Source of the DNA: Sphingobacteriaceae bacterium
GTDB taxonomy: Bacteria; Bacteroidota; Bacteroidia; UBA7662
Direction of reading: 5' to 3'
Assembly (NCBI GenBank): GCA_030682795.1
Contig: JAUXNJ010000047.1
Location: 1 to 64,000 of the forward strand
DNA: 64,000 nucleotides
This document shows, in pieces, positions 50,639 to 53,894 of the stretch (positions are counted from its first letter, which is position 1; each line of letters begins with the position of its first letter). The position numbers and the translations under genes were made by a program. Below the pieces are notes generated by a model. That model saw nothing but the letters and a program-made list of their open reading frames with translations, was not told where the DNA came from and did no database searches.

Positions 50639-50655
50639 GAATTTTTAATCCAAGA

Positions 50656-50686
50656 AAAAGCCCGGTATTTTAAATGCCGGGCTTTT
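50656..50686. terminator. Bidirectional terminator after rplT
   Basis: AAAAGCCCGG (50656-50665) pairs with CCGGGCTTTT (50677-50686), loop of 11 bases. It ends the thrS operon and, on the minus strand, the YidD operon, whose last stop is at 50692. Confidence 0.8.
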
Positions 50687-50691
50687 GTGCT

Positions 50692-51546
50692 TTAAGGGTT
50701 TTGCTTTTCGATGTCGGCCAAGATGCTGGCAAGAATTAATTTGCGATTAGCCAACATTTTCTGGTAGGCCAATAAGGATGCTTTGTTGTATCCCCCAACA
50801 TAGTAACGTTGGAACCATGGTAATACGGCAATAAAAGCATCCAAGGGGCCATAAAGATTAAAAATACGGAGGTAGTAAAATATGAATACGCTATTAATCA
50901 AAAATGAATTACCGGCTTCCCGGTATTCTTTGGCATACAACTGTCCACTACCAGGTACCATGGCACTTAACGCAAGTGCTAGTGTAGATCGCGGTCTGTA
51001 GAGTTGTTTCGGGGAAGCAAATATGCTTTGGATGTGATTGCTGTCGCTCACCAAGGCCAAAAAAGCTGCTTCCGCGGCTTCAAACTGCTCCATCTCATAT
51101 AAACACAATCCTTTGAATAGGTAGAATGTGGCTTTGGCGGAATGACTGAGCAAGGTGGTGTCTAAGCTGTAGAGTTCAGACAAGGCAAGGGTATATTTGT
51201 ATTGTCCGATCAATGCGCGGCTTTTAAGTAATATGGCTTCTTGTTGCTGCGATGTTAGCTTAGAGCTAAAGAAGGAGCGATCGAAAAAAGCACCCGCTTG
51301 CTCATAATCGCCTATAGCCAAATAACATCTGCCTATTTCAAGTTGTATTGTCGGGTCTACTTGGGGGTAATTTTCAAAGGCCACTTGATTGTAGGCATAT
51401 AACGCTAAATCGTAATTTTTTGCACCATAGGCTTTTTGTGCCATCTCCATGTAGGATACACTGCTGTTACCCTCGGTGCTTTGGGCAAAGGCGCCAATGA
51501 CGCCCAAAAACATGCTAACGCAGCTGTACAAGGCGCGAATATACAT
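50692..51546 (-). CDS. Secreted TPR protein with C-terminal PGSGQ-type membrane domain (YidD operon)
   Basis: A 284-residue protein. A signal peptide (1-21, cut after AFA) precedes a TPR-like helical region (about 32-165, e.g. AQKAYGAKNYDLALYAYNQV, AIGDYEQAGAFF). Residues 188-225 have LALSAMVPGSGQLYA and a hydrophobic helix, then FYYLRIFNLYGPLD. The PGSGQxYA motif occurs in many short Bacteroidota proteins of unknown function (DUF5683-like). The upstream gene has the same motif at exactly the same residues (198-205), so the two are paralogues. It overlaps it by 32 bases and is the last gene of the operon. Confidence 0.75.
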   Translation of the reverse strand: MYIRALYSCVSMFLGVIGAFAQSTEGNSSVSYMEMAQKAYGAKNYDLALYAYNQVAFENYPQVDPTIQLEIGRCYLAIGDYEQAGAFFDRSFFSSKLTSQQQEAILLKSRALIGQYKYTLALSELYSLDTTLLSHSAKATFYLFKGLCLYEMEQFEAAEAAFLALVSDSNHIQSIFASPKQLYRPRSTLALALSAMVPGSGQLYAKEYREAGNSFLINSVFIFYYLRIFNLYGPLDAFIAVLPWFQRYYVGGYNKASLLAYQKMLANRKLILASILADIEKQNP

Positions 51547-52369
51547 TGGCTTTGATTTTGGATTCTAACTCATGATTGTAAATGCGAGCTGCTTTCTGCG
51601 AACCATAGATATTACCAATGTAAAAGCCTGCAGAAAGACCGCCGAAGAGCCAGCCGTAGGGACTTCTGATACCAGTGCTGCTAAAGCCACGATAAGCAGT
51701 ATAGGCATTGGCTCCTACGAAAAGTAGAGAAACGAGCCCGTCTTTCCATTTGCCTGCATAGACTTTGCCTGCACCTGGAATAAAGGTGGATAAGGCACCT
51801 GCAATCAGGGGCGATTTACGCGGACTTTCAGTCCAGTCGCGCAGCGCCTGCACCAACACTTCGTCATGTTGGCTTTCCATTCCCGGAATATGTAAATGAT
51901 AGTGGGTACTTTTGTTAGGCGCGCTCAAGATGCTTAATCCTAAACTCATGTTGTCGGCATACCTGAGCATGTCAAAGTCTGAAGCCGCCGTCATGCGAAT
52001 ATCGGCCAAAATGGAGGGAATCCATACTAAATCACGCAACAGCAAGGAGTTTAAAATCATTTCTTTTTTGAAAAGATGTATTTCTTCAGTGCTGTTTTGT
52101 GGGAGTAGCGAAAAGGTTTTGGCATAGGACCTTGCCCGATCATAAGACCCATTCATGCGATTGGTTTCAACCAGGGCGGCTTGCACACCTGGCATTTGGG
52201 GAGCTACAAAATATAGCCGCTCGAATTCTAATGTGGCTAAGTGATATTGTCCGGTTAGCACAAGATATTGCCCAAACGACAGTCCCTTAGCAGTACTGTC
52301 GATTTGCGCCGAGGAAACCAAAGCCATGCCTGAGAAGAGGGCCAAAAGTAAATAGGTTTTAATGTGCAT
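51515..52369 (-). CDS. Secreted protein with PGAGK-type membrane domain, paralogue of the next gene
   Basis: A 284-residue protein with signal peptide MHIKTYLLLALFSGMALVSS. The middle resembles a degenerate TPR region (LATLEFERLYFVAPQMPGV, NRMNGSYDRARSYAKTF). The C-terminal part has GALSTFIPGAGKVYAGKWKD (motif at 198-205) and hydrophobic stretches GLVSLLFVGANAY and LFGGLSAGFYIGNI. Same size and layout as the downstream gene. It overlaps YidD by 11 bases and its paralogue by 32. Confidence 0.75.
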   Translation of the reverse strand: MHIKTYLLLALFSGMALVSSAQIDSTAKGLSFGQYLVLTGQYHLATLEFERLYFVAPQMPGVQAALVETNRMNGSYDRARSYAKTFSLLPQNSTEEIHLFKKEMILNSLLLRDLVWIPSILADIRMTAASDFDMLRYADNMSLGLSILSAPNKSTHYHLHIPGMESQHDEVLVQALRDWTESPRKSPLIAGALSTFIPGAGKVYAGKWKDGLVSLLFVGANAYTAYRGFSSTGIRSPYGWLFGGLSAGFYIGNIYGSQKAARIYNHELESKIKANVYSRLVQLR

Positions 52370-52769
52370 GGGAGTGTTCTATTGGGTCGAAATTGAGGCC
52401 TGTAGTAGGGTCTTTTTGATAATAAACGCTGTTCCAGCCGTGGCATCTCGACAGGCGGTCGAAGGTAGCCATTCCACCCACGAAAAAGCCCAGCTTTTGA
52501 ACAGCGTTAAGTCCGTAAACAGAGCAGCTCGGTTCAAAGGTACAGCTGATAGCATCTTGGGAAGAAATGTACCTTTTGTAAAAGGTGAACGCAAATTTGG
52601 CAGCAAACTCATATTCGTTGGCCGATTCGAAACGAAACGAATGGTTTGTTTTTGGCGTTGTTCGGAGGCTGTGTTCACGCACAAATGTCAGGTCATTTTT
52701 TAACTGCGCCTTTGCTGGCAGGTAAAACCCGAGGCATATAGTTGTATATATGATTGTTCTTAACTTCAT
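52359..52769 (-). CDS. yidD: YidD-family protein with a signal peptide
   Basis: A 136-residue protein whose C-terminal part is the YidD domain: FYKRYISSQDAISCTFEPSC (C76, C82), YGLNAVQKLGFFVGG and DRLSRCHGW (C109). YidD normally is a short membrane-attached protein helping YidC-dependent insertion. Here a signal peptide (cut near AKA at 20-21) and a 45-residue extension precede it, suggesting a periplasmic or outer-membrane location. The genome probably has an ordinary YidD elsewhere. The first 77 bases overlap the upstream gene, and its end overlaps the downstream gene by 11. Confidence 0.8.
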   Translation of the reverse strand: MKLRTIIYTTICLGFYLPAKAQLKNDLTFVREHSLRTTPKTNHSFRFESANEYEFAAKFAFTFYKRYISSQDAISCTFEPSCSVYGLNAVQKLGFFVGGMATFDRLSRCHGWNSVYYQKDPTTGLNFDPIEHSHAH

Positions 52770-53403
52770 TGATCACCACGTTAGTGTAGGTTGTTTGTTG
52801 CCATATTTCTTTTTGATCTTCATATACAATATCAATGATTTCTCTTGGGAAAAGTACACCTTGTATATTTAAATAATCGTTGAATAGCTGTTTGCGCAGT
52901 GCATGACCTTTGGGGTGGTAGAAAATAACACCCTTAAGCTGTTTATCTCGGGTGCTGGTAGCCACTTGGCCAACACGTTTTGCAGCCGCCGCTGGTGGGG
53001 TCCAGGTGGTAATTACCAGGCCTTTGTCTTGCCTCACTTCACTGGCCGTGAAGCTGGAGTTTTTGAGGCCGTAATGACTTAATTCCTGCTTCATGCTGAG
53101 GTGAATCACGCTCAATTCAGGACGAATAGAGGCGGGCAATACGTTTATCACCGAGTCGTTGCGCACCACCCACTGAATGCTATCCATGAAAATCCACTTT
53201 TCTTTCTCTGGAAAACTGATTTCATAAATCAATCGGCCCACACTGAGATCGTAGTAGCAAGTACCCATCACAAGTCTGGAAGCCGGCTGGTCTTTTACTT
53301 TTGTTTTGACCGAAAAATCACAACGCAGACGGGTTGTTTGTTGACTTTGGGCATCAAAATAAATCGCAATGACCAAGAGGGAAGTAAAGAGTACTTTTGA
53401 CAT
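52693..53403 (-). CDS. Secreted protein, possibly LolA-like fold (YidD operon)
   Basis: A 236-residue protein with signal peptide MSKVLFTSLLVIAIYFDAQS. The mature part looks like one beta-sheet domain (RLRCDFSVKTKV, LVMGTCYYDLSVGRLIYEIS, GLVITTWTPPAAA, RVLPAS). Order and spacing of strands recall LolA-type carriers of lipoproteins, but no LolA signature is clear, so this is a guess. First gene of the four-gene overlapping operon; the start at 53401-53403 is chosen for the signal peptide. A terminator for the preceding gene ends 12 bases upstream. Confidence 0.6.
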   Translation of the reverse strand: MSKVLFTSLLVIAIYFDAQSQQTTRLRCDFSVKTKVKDQPASRLVMGTCYYDLSVGRLIYEISFPEKEKWIFMDSIQWVVRNDSVINVLPASIRPELSVIHLSMKQELSHYGLKNSSFTASEVRQDKGLVITTWTPPAAAAKRVGQVATSTRDKQLKGVIFYHPKGHALRKQLFNDYLNIQGVLFPREIIDIVYEDQKEIWQQTTYTNVVINEVKNNHIYNYMPRVLPASKGAVKK

Positions 53404-53414
53404 AGGGCAAAAAA

Positions 53415-53450
53415 AAAGCGCTGCATTAAGTATAGTTAACACAGCGCTTT
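53415..53450 (-). terminator. Terminator of the 53466 gene
   Basis: On the minus strand AAAGCGCTG (53442-53450) pairs with CAGCGCTTT (53415-53423) and is followed by a T run. It separates the small membrane protein from the YidD operon. Confidence 0.7.
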
Positions 53451-53465
53451 GGACATCATTAGTTG

Positions 53466-53894
53466 TTAAGGAGTAGTGAAATTAAACGATTGTGGATTCG
53501 ACACGACAGTGATGGCACCTACAACGGCGTTTGTGACAAGGCCAATCCAAAAGGATAGTTTTTGGTCATTCGACTTGTTGCTATTGATGGCAACTACAAA
53601 AAAACCAACAGGCCAACAGCAAAAGCCCCATGCAAATGAACCCCAGTCCATGTCTTGAATAGACCAGCTGGCGTGTTGTAATCCCAAGCCAGCAAGTTCA
53701 TTGTTCCATTTCTCAGAAGTTTTTGCTTCTGTCAGGCTAAAGCCATGGAGTTTCACGTCTTGTTCCAATTGGTTCAAGCTTGTCATTTCCGTTTCGAATG
53801 CAACTGCATCGTAGCTGAAGTCATCCGCACTTACGGTAGCAAATGCATTGAAGCCGAGGCAGCATGCAAATGCTAGGGTTAAGAGTTTTTTCAT
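53466..53894 (-). CDS. Small secreted/membrane protein, unknown function
   Basis: A 142-residue protein with signal peptide MKKLLTLAFACCLGFNAFA. A charged middle part is followed by two hydrophobic segments: GSFAWGFCCWPVGFFVVAI and FWIGLVTNAVVGAITVV. The cysteine pair CCWP is characteristic of small Bacteroidota proteins without known function. A 77-base gap separates it from rocD. The start at 53892-53894 is chosen for the signal peptide. Confidence 0.65.
   Translation of the reverse strand: MKKLLTLAFACCLGFNAFATVSADDFSYDAVAFETEMTSLNQLEQDVKLHGFSLTEAKTSEKWNNELAGLGLQHASWSIQDMDWGSFAWGFCCWPVGFFVVAINSNKSNDQKLSFWIGLVTNAVVGAITVVSNPQSFNFTTP

Follow-up and report, generated by a model that had tools for sequence, protein, structure and literature searches.

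Canonical YidD, an insertion efficiency factor associated with YidC, is tied to the insertion of proteins into the inner membrane (Yu et al., 2011, as cited in PMC8082313), and its domain is near-universal, being found in 387 of the 395 genomes of the phylum sample used here, and poorly understood. P. gingivalis LolA3, which is among the nearest structural matches of one of the proteins described below, has a function that is not known (PMC11885536; PMC13103446). For exported proteins, a glutamine following the cleavage site marks the substrates of signal peptidase I in Bacteroidota, a rule which is valid for Bacteroidetes but not for the whole FCB group (PMC5837995). The window analysed here, a stretch of 64,000 nucleotides from a Sphingobacteriaceae bacterium (GCA_030682795.1, contig JAUXNJ010000047.1), contains a gene set in which a YidD domain follows a signal peptide and is encoded together with a LolA-like protein and two paralogous proteins. 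The initial annotation of this DNA had presented the set as a candidate undescribed envelope system, and this is supported. No description was found in the searched literature: the parts belong to known families, while that literature describes neither their assembly nor the cargo nor this compartment for YidD, and the module appears new as a system. Among the listed hits of a literature search, judged by title and abstract and mostly without subscription journals, there was no paper on an exported YidD, and an earlier mention in such journals is possible. An exported form with conserved partners would be an envelope pathway missing from textbook models.

Gene layout and domains in the window

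All genes of the set lie on the minus strand. The LolA-like protein (52693..53403; 236 aa) is followed by the exported YidD paralogue, here SP-YidD (52359..52769; 136 aa, signal peptide 1-21), and by two proteins of 284 aa each, P1 (51515..52369) and P2 (50692..51546). These four genes overlap in turn by 77, 11, and 32 nt, which was confirmed to the base, and each product bears a predicted signal peptide fitting a Q-rule cleavage site, namely between LPAKA and QLKN in SP-YidD, VSSA and QIDS in P1, GAFA and QSTE in P2, and FDA and QSQQ, or two residues further on, in the LolA-like protein. While the three partners first ascribed to the secreted YidD are real, a fifth gene had been overlooked: it encodes a small CD225-like protein (53466..53894, minus strand; 142 aa) that has, besides its signal peptide, two more hydrophobic segments and a C-terminal hydrophobic hairpin and is a possible cargo or partner. 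Between this gene and the LolA-like gene lies a terminator-like hairpin of 15 pairs followed by a T run (53415..53450, minus strand). In 13 other loci, most of them from Bacteroidales (L143:6543-7457, L131:6458-7384, L148:6621-7565, and ten further loci), P2 is followed by a sixth gene, whose product of about 304 aa carries a signal peptide and has no Pfam match. At the other end of the set, the inverted repeat GCCCGGTATTTTAAATGCCGGGC with A and T runs on its flanks is found at 50655-50687, between rplT and the end of P2, and it is probably a terminator for both converging transcripts; the pattern scan did not report it. A reading as a defence system found no PADLOC match.

The YidD domain was borne out by PF01809 (E 2.9e-17, residues 59-115), with scores above the cut-offs for PF01809 (62.6 bits, cut-off 27) and for TIGR00278 (59.4 bits, equivalog cut-off 40). 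Because the TIGR00278 score exceeds the equivalog cut-off, annotation pipelines would name SP-YidD the canonical insertion factor, and the label "membrane protein insertion efficiency factor", when assigned automatically, cannot be relied on for exported YidDs. C76 and C82 are invariant among 31 aligned homologues, and what had been taken for a long N-terminal extension consists of the signal peptide and a linker of some 35 residues that is poorly conserved. A fold search of the PDB with a model of SP-YidD gave no useful match (best E 4.5), and a profile search found no solved homologue. SP-YidD departs from the short cytosolic form without signal peptide that characterizes canonical YidD, and its gene is placed with those of the LolA-like protein, P1 and P2 and not beside rnpA. 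A canonical YidD of 69 aa, encoded beside rnpA (locus L036), is also present in the same genome, and so is a separate PF03548 LolA on another contig; since both persist, the exported set is an addition and not a replacement.

Beyond the PG motif, P1 and P2 also bear N-terminal TPR-type repeats: P1 matched TPR chains in the PDB by profile search and P2 matches TPR_16 (E 2.6e-8). The C-terminal hairpin domain carries PGxGK-Y in P1, where it is TM2-like (PF05154; E 0.0015, 19.2 bits, below the curated cut-off of 27.9), and PGxGQ-Y in P2, where it is DUF5683-like (PF18935; E 0.0065, 16.9 bits, below the curated cut-off of 26.7); the small upstream protein matches CD225 (PF04505) at E 0.0024 and 18.4 bits, likewise below the curated cut-off of 27.1. 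As first noted, the motif stands at the same position in both proteins of 284 aa, which is P198, and this equality of position is due to chance and without meaning because homologues carry the motif anywhere from about 170 to 270.

Conservation, gene order, and export signals across phyla

In the phylum sample of 395 genomes, 54 besides the window's genome have at least two YidD matches, and 40 second-copy loci were read. Using profiles of the cassette proteins, P1/P2-type partners were found at 32 of these 40 loci and at none of 48 canonical YidD loci, and although the canonical loci compared were shorter (about 3.2 kb versus 8 kb) the difference stands because the partners normally touch YidD. 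The eight loci without partners (L088-L096) come from a few other families and hold second YidDs of different types. One such subtype, IP..RR..C.F..SCS with a hydrophobic start and without cassette, was seen in two families of the class (L088:3935-4279, L089:3891-4178, L090:3933-4283, L091:3955-4239). Moreover, contigs of GTDB genomes were scanned with a P1 alignment. From the 340 relatives found, 80 named loci were retained, and together with the 40 second-YidD loci 120 loci were examined. The full set of LolA-like protein, YidD, P1 and P2 is present in 55 of them, and YidD, P1 and P2 without a LolA-like gene nearby in 43. The sources are mostly metagenome-assembled genomes and include Chitinophagales, Saprospiraceae, Bacteroidales, Prolixibacteraceae, Flavobacteriales, and Cyclobacterium on the Bacteroidota side and, farther away, Ignavibacteria (Ignavibacteriota), Kapabacteria, KSB1, Cloacimonadota, Marinimicrobia, and Aminicenantes. 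The co-occurrence of signal-peptide YidD and the PG paralogues, for which the initial annotation had called, is thus seen as a gene cluster that recurs in many genomes, and the claim survives with the clustering found in other Bacteroidota. The survey of loci excludes chance or a local oddity. As judged from the sequences, the module is real and ancient and spans several phyla.

Within the window's family, the order CD225-like protein, LolA-like protein, SP-YidD, P1, P2 is common to six genomes (the window and L027-L031); L032, from another family of the order, has SP-YidD with one PGLGK protein. A count by hand gave tandem P1-P2 pairs in no fewer than 37 of the 198 Bacteroidia genomes sampled. 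The core of YidD, P1 and P2 in Ignavibacteria has neither a LolA-like nor a small hairpin gene nearby, so that these two genes are not needed by the core everywhere. Genes that recur in Ignavibacteria only, upstream for an acyl-CoA dehydrogenase and downstream for ACT-domain and DUF711 proteins, were rejected as partners and taken as shared synteny. Two cassettes occur in some genomes (L131, L133, L136; G531, G528, G577, G501), and in L131, L133, and L136 both are on one contig, a few kb apart, with the second more divergent.

The gene order is nearly fixed across loci and adjacent genes commonly overlap when the longest ORF starts are used (LolA-YidD in 57 of 61 cases, YidD-P1 in 81 of 108, and P1-P2 in 87 of 107). 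In a tree of 92 sequences all first-position proteins form one clade and all second-position proteins another, each with a support of 100/100, and related lineages group together in both halves. This pattern points to a single ancient duplication that either is older than the divergence of these phyla or was spread en bloc. In G129 (L069), YidD and P1 form a single fused protein of 400 aa, and since the fusion is also present in a second genus (G593), 41% identical over the whole length, it is not a sequencing error. In L136, P2 is fused to the TPR-like product of the sixth gene, which stands alone downstream in 12 other loci. Some arrangements deviate: P1-type proteins without YidD or P2 nearby follow genes of 153-155 aa and 490 aa (L149:4959-5819, L154:4959-5819, L159:4926-5768), a P1-P2 pair on a contig labelled Spirochaetales has no YidD nearby (L169:4923-6651), and P2 of a Cyclobacterium sp. 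lies in two overlapping ORFs, by frameshift or genuine split (L142:5692-6572).

Q-rule-like sites were found in 94 of 115 YidD homologues, 101 of 114 P1 and 48 of 59 LolA-like proteins (81-89%) and in 82 of 108 P2 proteins (76%), compared with 2 of 49 canonical YidDs (4%) and 107 of 555 other ORFs of the same loci, and this evidence is weaker outside Bacteroidota because the rule does not cover the whole FCB group. The signal-peptide evidence on cleavage is favourable, and SP-YidD should end up outside the cytosol, in line with the periplasmic site of action first proposed. Exported YidDs form a single clade apart from the canonical ones (support 99/97) in a tree of 87 columns only, which is to be read with care and from which three long-branch rows were excluded. 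An ordinary cytosolic duplicate, in which the hydrophobic N-terminus is no signal peptide and the neighbours are there by chance, is what pipelines would call from the TIGR00278 score; such a plain duplicate is largely contradicted by the survey and is extremely improbable in view of the Q-rule sites, the separate clade, the distribution of the partners and the conserved fusion with P1.

The LolA-like protein and the small upstream protein

The LolA-like character suspected for the first gene holds: its Pfam match is weak (DUF4292, E 0.015), yet an AlphaFold2 model from eight sequences (pLDDT 83, pTM 0.76) matches the LolA superfamily, best with NE2245 (3buu; Foldseek E 2.6e-10, prob 1.00, TM-score about 0.57), further with P. 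gingivalis LolA3 (1.0e-8) and P. aeruginosa LolA (3.5e-8), and also with a Vibrio lipoprotein-sorting protein, many LolAs, and P. gingivalis LolB. Links by sequence are weak (3buu E 0.38 by profile; PF17131 E 3e-4 in a Marinimicrobia homologue), and a match to PF03548, the canonical LolA, was not obtained. On the model, the protein is a LolA-fold protein and not a canonical LolA. At the site of the LolA arginine in the beta2-beta3 loop, the model loop 53-56 reads LSVG, and R57, which opens the next strand, is unconserved in L028. The protein differs from LolB by its signal peptide of the SPI type, with no lipoprotein signal, and by the beta3-beta4 model loop 65-67, which reads PEK where LolB exposes a hydrophobic residue.

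The predicted fold allows for lipid or lipoprotein export, in which the LolA-like protein would ferry acyl cargo from the inner to the outer membrane and P1, P2, and SP-YidD would be the release site. The separate canonical LolA in the same genome is consistent with such a role, as is the proposal of LolA-type proteins of Bacteroidota for one dedicated pathway (PMC11885536). However, the recurrent neighbours, of which some clusters were run against Pfam, included no recognisable gene for lipid synthesis, for a LolB-like lipoprotein or for a transporter, and the loci with YidD, P1, and P2 only also speak against it; we regard export of this kind as possible but rather unlikely.

The CD225-like gene is single-copy in the window's genome, and eight of ten copies in seven genomes adjoin the cassette. 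Its position is filled in other phyla by small exported hairpin proteins of another kind, while clear TM2 proteins are encoded upstream in some Bacteroidota cassettes (E 3.5e-15 and 2.9e-19). A small exported protein with a hydrophobic segment is encoded at most 700 nt upstream in 44 of 53 cassettes with a LolA-like gene versus 3 of 46 without, and in 4 of 87 downstream controls; the raw Fisher p of 4e-16 for this link is inflated because both traits follow the tree with few independent changes, and an independent-pairs test with two (at most six) usable pairs was not significant after kinship correction. The terminator-like hairpin recurs in 16 of 36 homologous gaps versus 0.2 expected from mononucleotide shuffles, and as the gaps include the same or close genomes (e.g., L027 and L108) the independent cases are perhaps ten. 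Termination at this point would raise the amount of the small protein above that of the other products, as for a client relative to its machinery; the plain end of a separate transcript fits too.

The domain content may alternatively point away from transport, towards a scaffold or sensor: TPR pairs with TM2-like hairpins would, together with SP-YidD, organise a membrane domain or keep it stable, and the small CD225/TM2-like proteins would be structural membrane proteins. TM2-like, CD225-like, and TPR parts dominate the set, the small hairpin protein is present as several tandem copies in some loci, and no ATPase or other energy source is encoded in the cassette, which also counts against the client-handling module proposed below. 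The presence of a carrier with the LolA fold in the operon speaks for a hydrophobic ligand and against this scaffold, which we judge unlikely.

Proposed mechanism and comparison with described systems

Our own proposal, which is advanced tentatively, is a dedicated envelope module that comprises an anchor of P1 and P2, SP-YidD and a LolA-like carrier and that handles a hydrophobic client. It draws on the association of the partners with second YidDs and not with canonical ones, the near-fixed order of overlapping genes, the fusions, the Q-rule sites, the LolA fold and the upstream hairpin gene; the Ignavibacteria cassettes and the non-significant link between the LolA-like and the hairpin gene speak against it. 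P1 and P2 would be exported by Sec and cleaved by signal peptidase I, placing their TPR domains in the periplasm. Their C-terminal PGxG[K/Q]-Y hairpins would most likely serve as anchors in the inner membrane, and P1 and P2 would most likely hold SP-YidD, in a putative complex, at the periplasmic side of this membrane. Hydrophobic cargo would then be passed on to the LolA-like carrier, whose hydrophobic groove would shield the client while it crosses the periplasm, and the leading candidate for this client is the small hairpin protein whose gene lies directly upstream. Anchoring in the membrane may be weak, given the moderate hydrophobicity of the P1 and P2 hairpins: the best 19-residue mean exceeds 1.3 in 28 of 98 P1 and 54 of 87 P2 proteins, and P1 and P2 of the window both stay below this value.

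A more specific form of this proposal is a second insertion route on the periplasmic side, in which P1, P2, and SP-YidD would take over small hairpin proteins once Sec has exported them, and the LolA-like protein would maintain their solubility before insertion into either the inner or the outer membrane. We consider this quite doubtful; if true, YidD would have been shifted to the other face of the membrane along with a dedicated client. The initial annotation had suggested insertion of outer-membrane proteins or lipids, and this is possible but not supported; nothing in the sequences points to outer-membrane beta-barrels. A periplasmic carrier and TPR proteins generally resemble parts of outer-membrane assembly; in its protein form the suggestion is nevertheless very unlikely, since the recurrent neighbours included no recognisable gene for a beta-barrel or a BamA/TamA-type protein and canonical YidD is linked to inner-membrane insertion (Yu et al., 2011, as cited in PMC8082313).

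In comparison with described systems, the LolA-like protein shares the LolA fold and export with P. gingivalis LolA3 (9tp6) and, as read on the model, also seems to have neither the arginine of LolA nor the leucine of LolB (definitions from PMC13103446), and it differs from the LolA superfamily in having its gene together with those of SP-YidD, P1 and P2 and in giving no PF03548 match. The Lol pathway (LolCDE-LolA-LolB) resembles the proposed module in its LolA-fold carrier and in the presumed start point at the inner membrane, whereas no ABC transporter such as LolCDE and no LolB was recognised beside the cassette. For lipid export, a parallel would be provided by LolA2/LolB2, the genes of which lie in the flexirubin locus of Bacteroidota. 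With TM2, DUF5683, and CD225 proteins, P1, P2 and the small protein share the PGxG-x2-Y(x)G hairpin motif and Pfam matches that stay below threshold; they differ in falling short of the curated cut-offs and, for P1 and P2, in the added TPR domains. Finally, the exported YidDs have the same domain as canonical YidD and keep the C-x5-C-S core and the D-R-x2-R and D-P positions, while they differ by their signal peptide, their own clade, their other neighbours, and, in the Ignavibacteria branch, by loss of the third cysteine (RD for RC). The exported cassette offers a clean handle on the role of the YidD domain, with partners, fusions, and a possible client visible.
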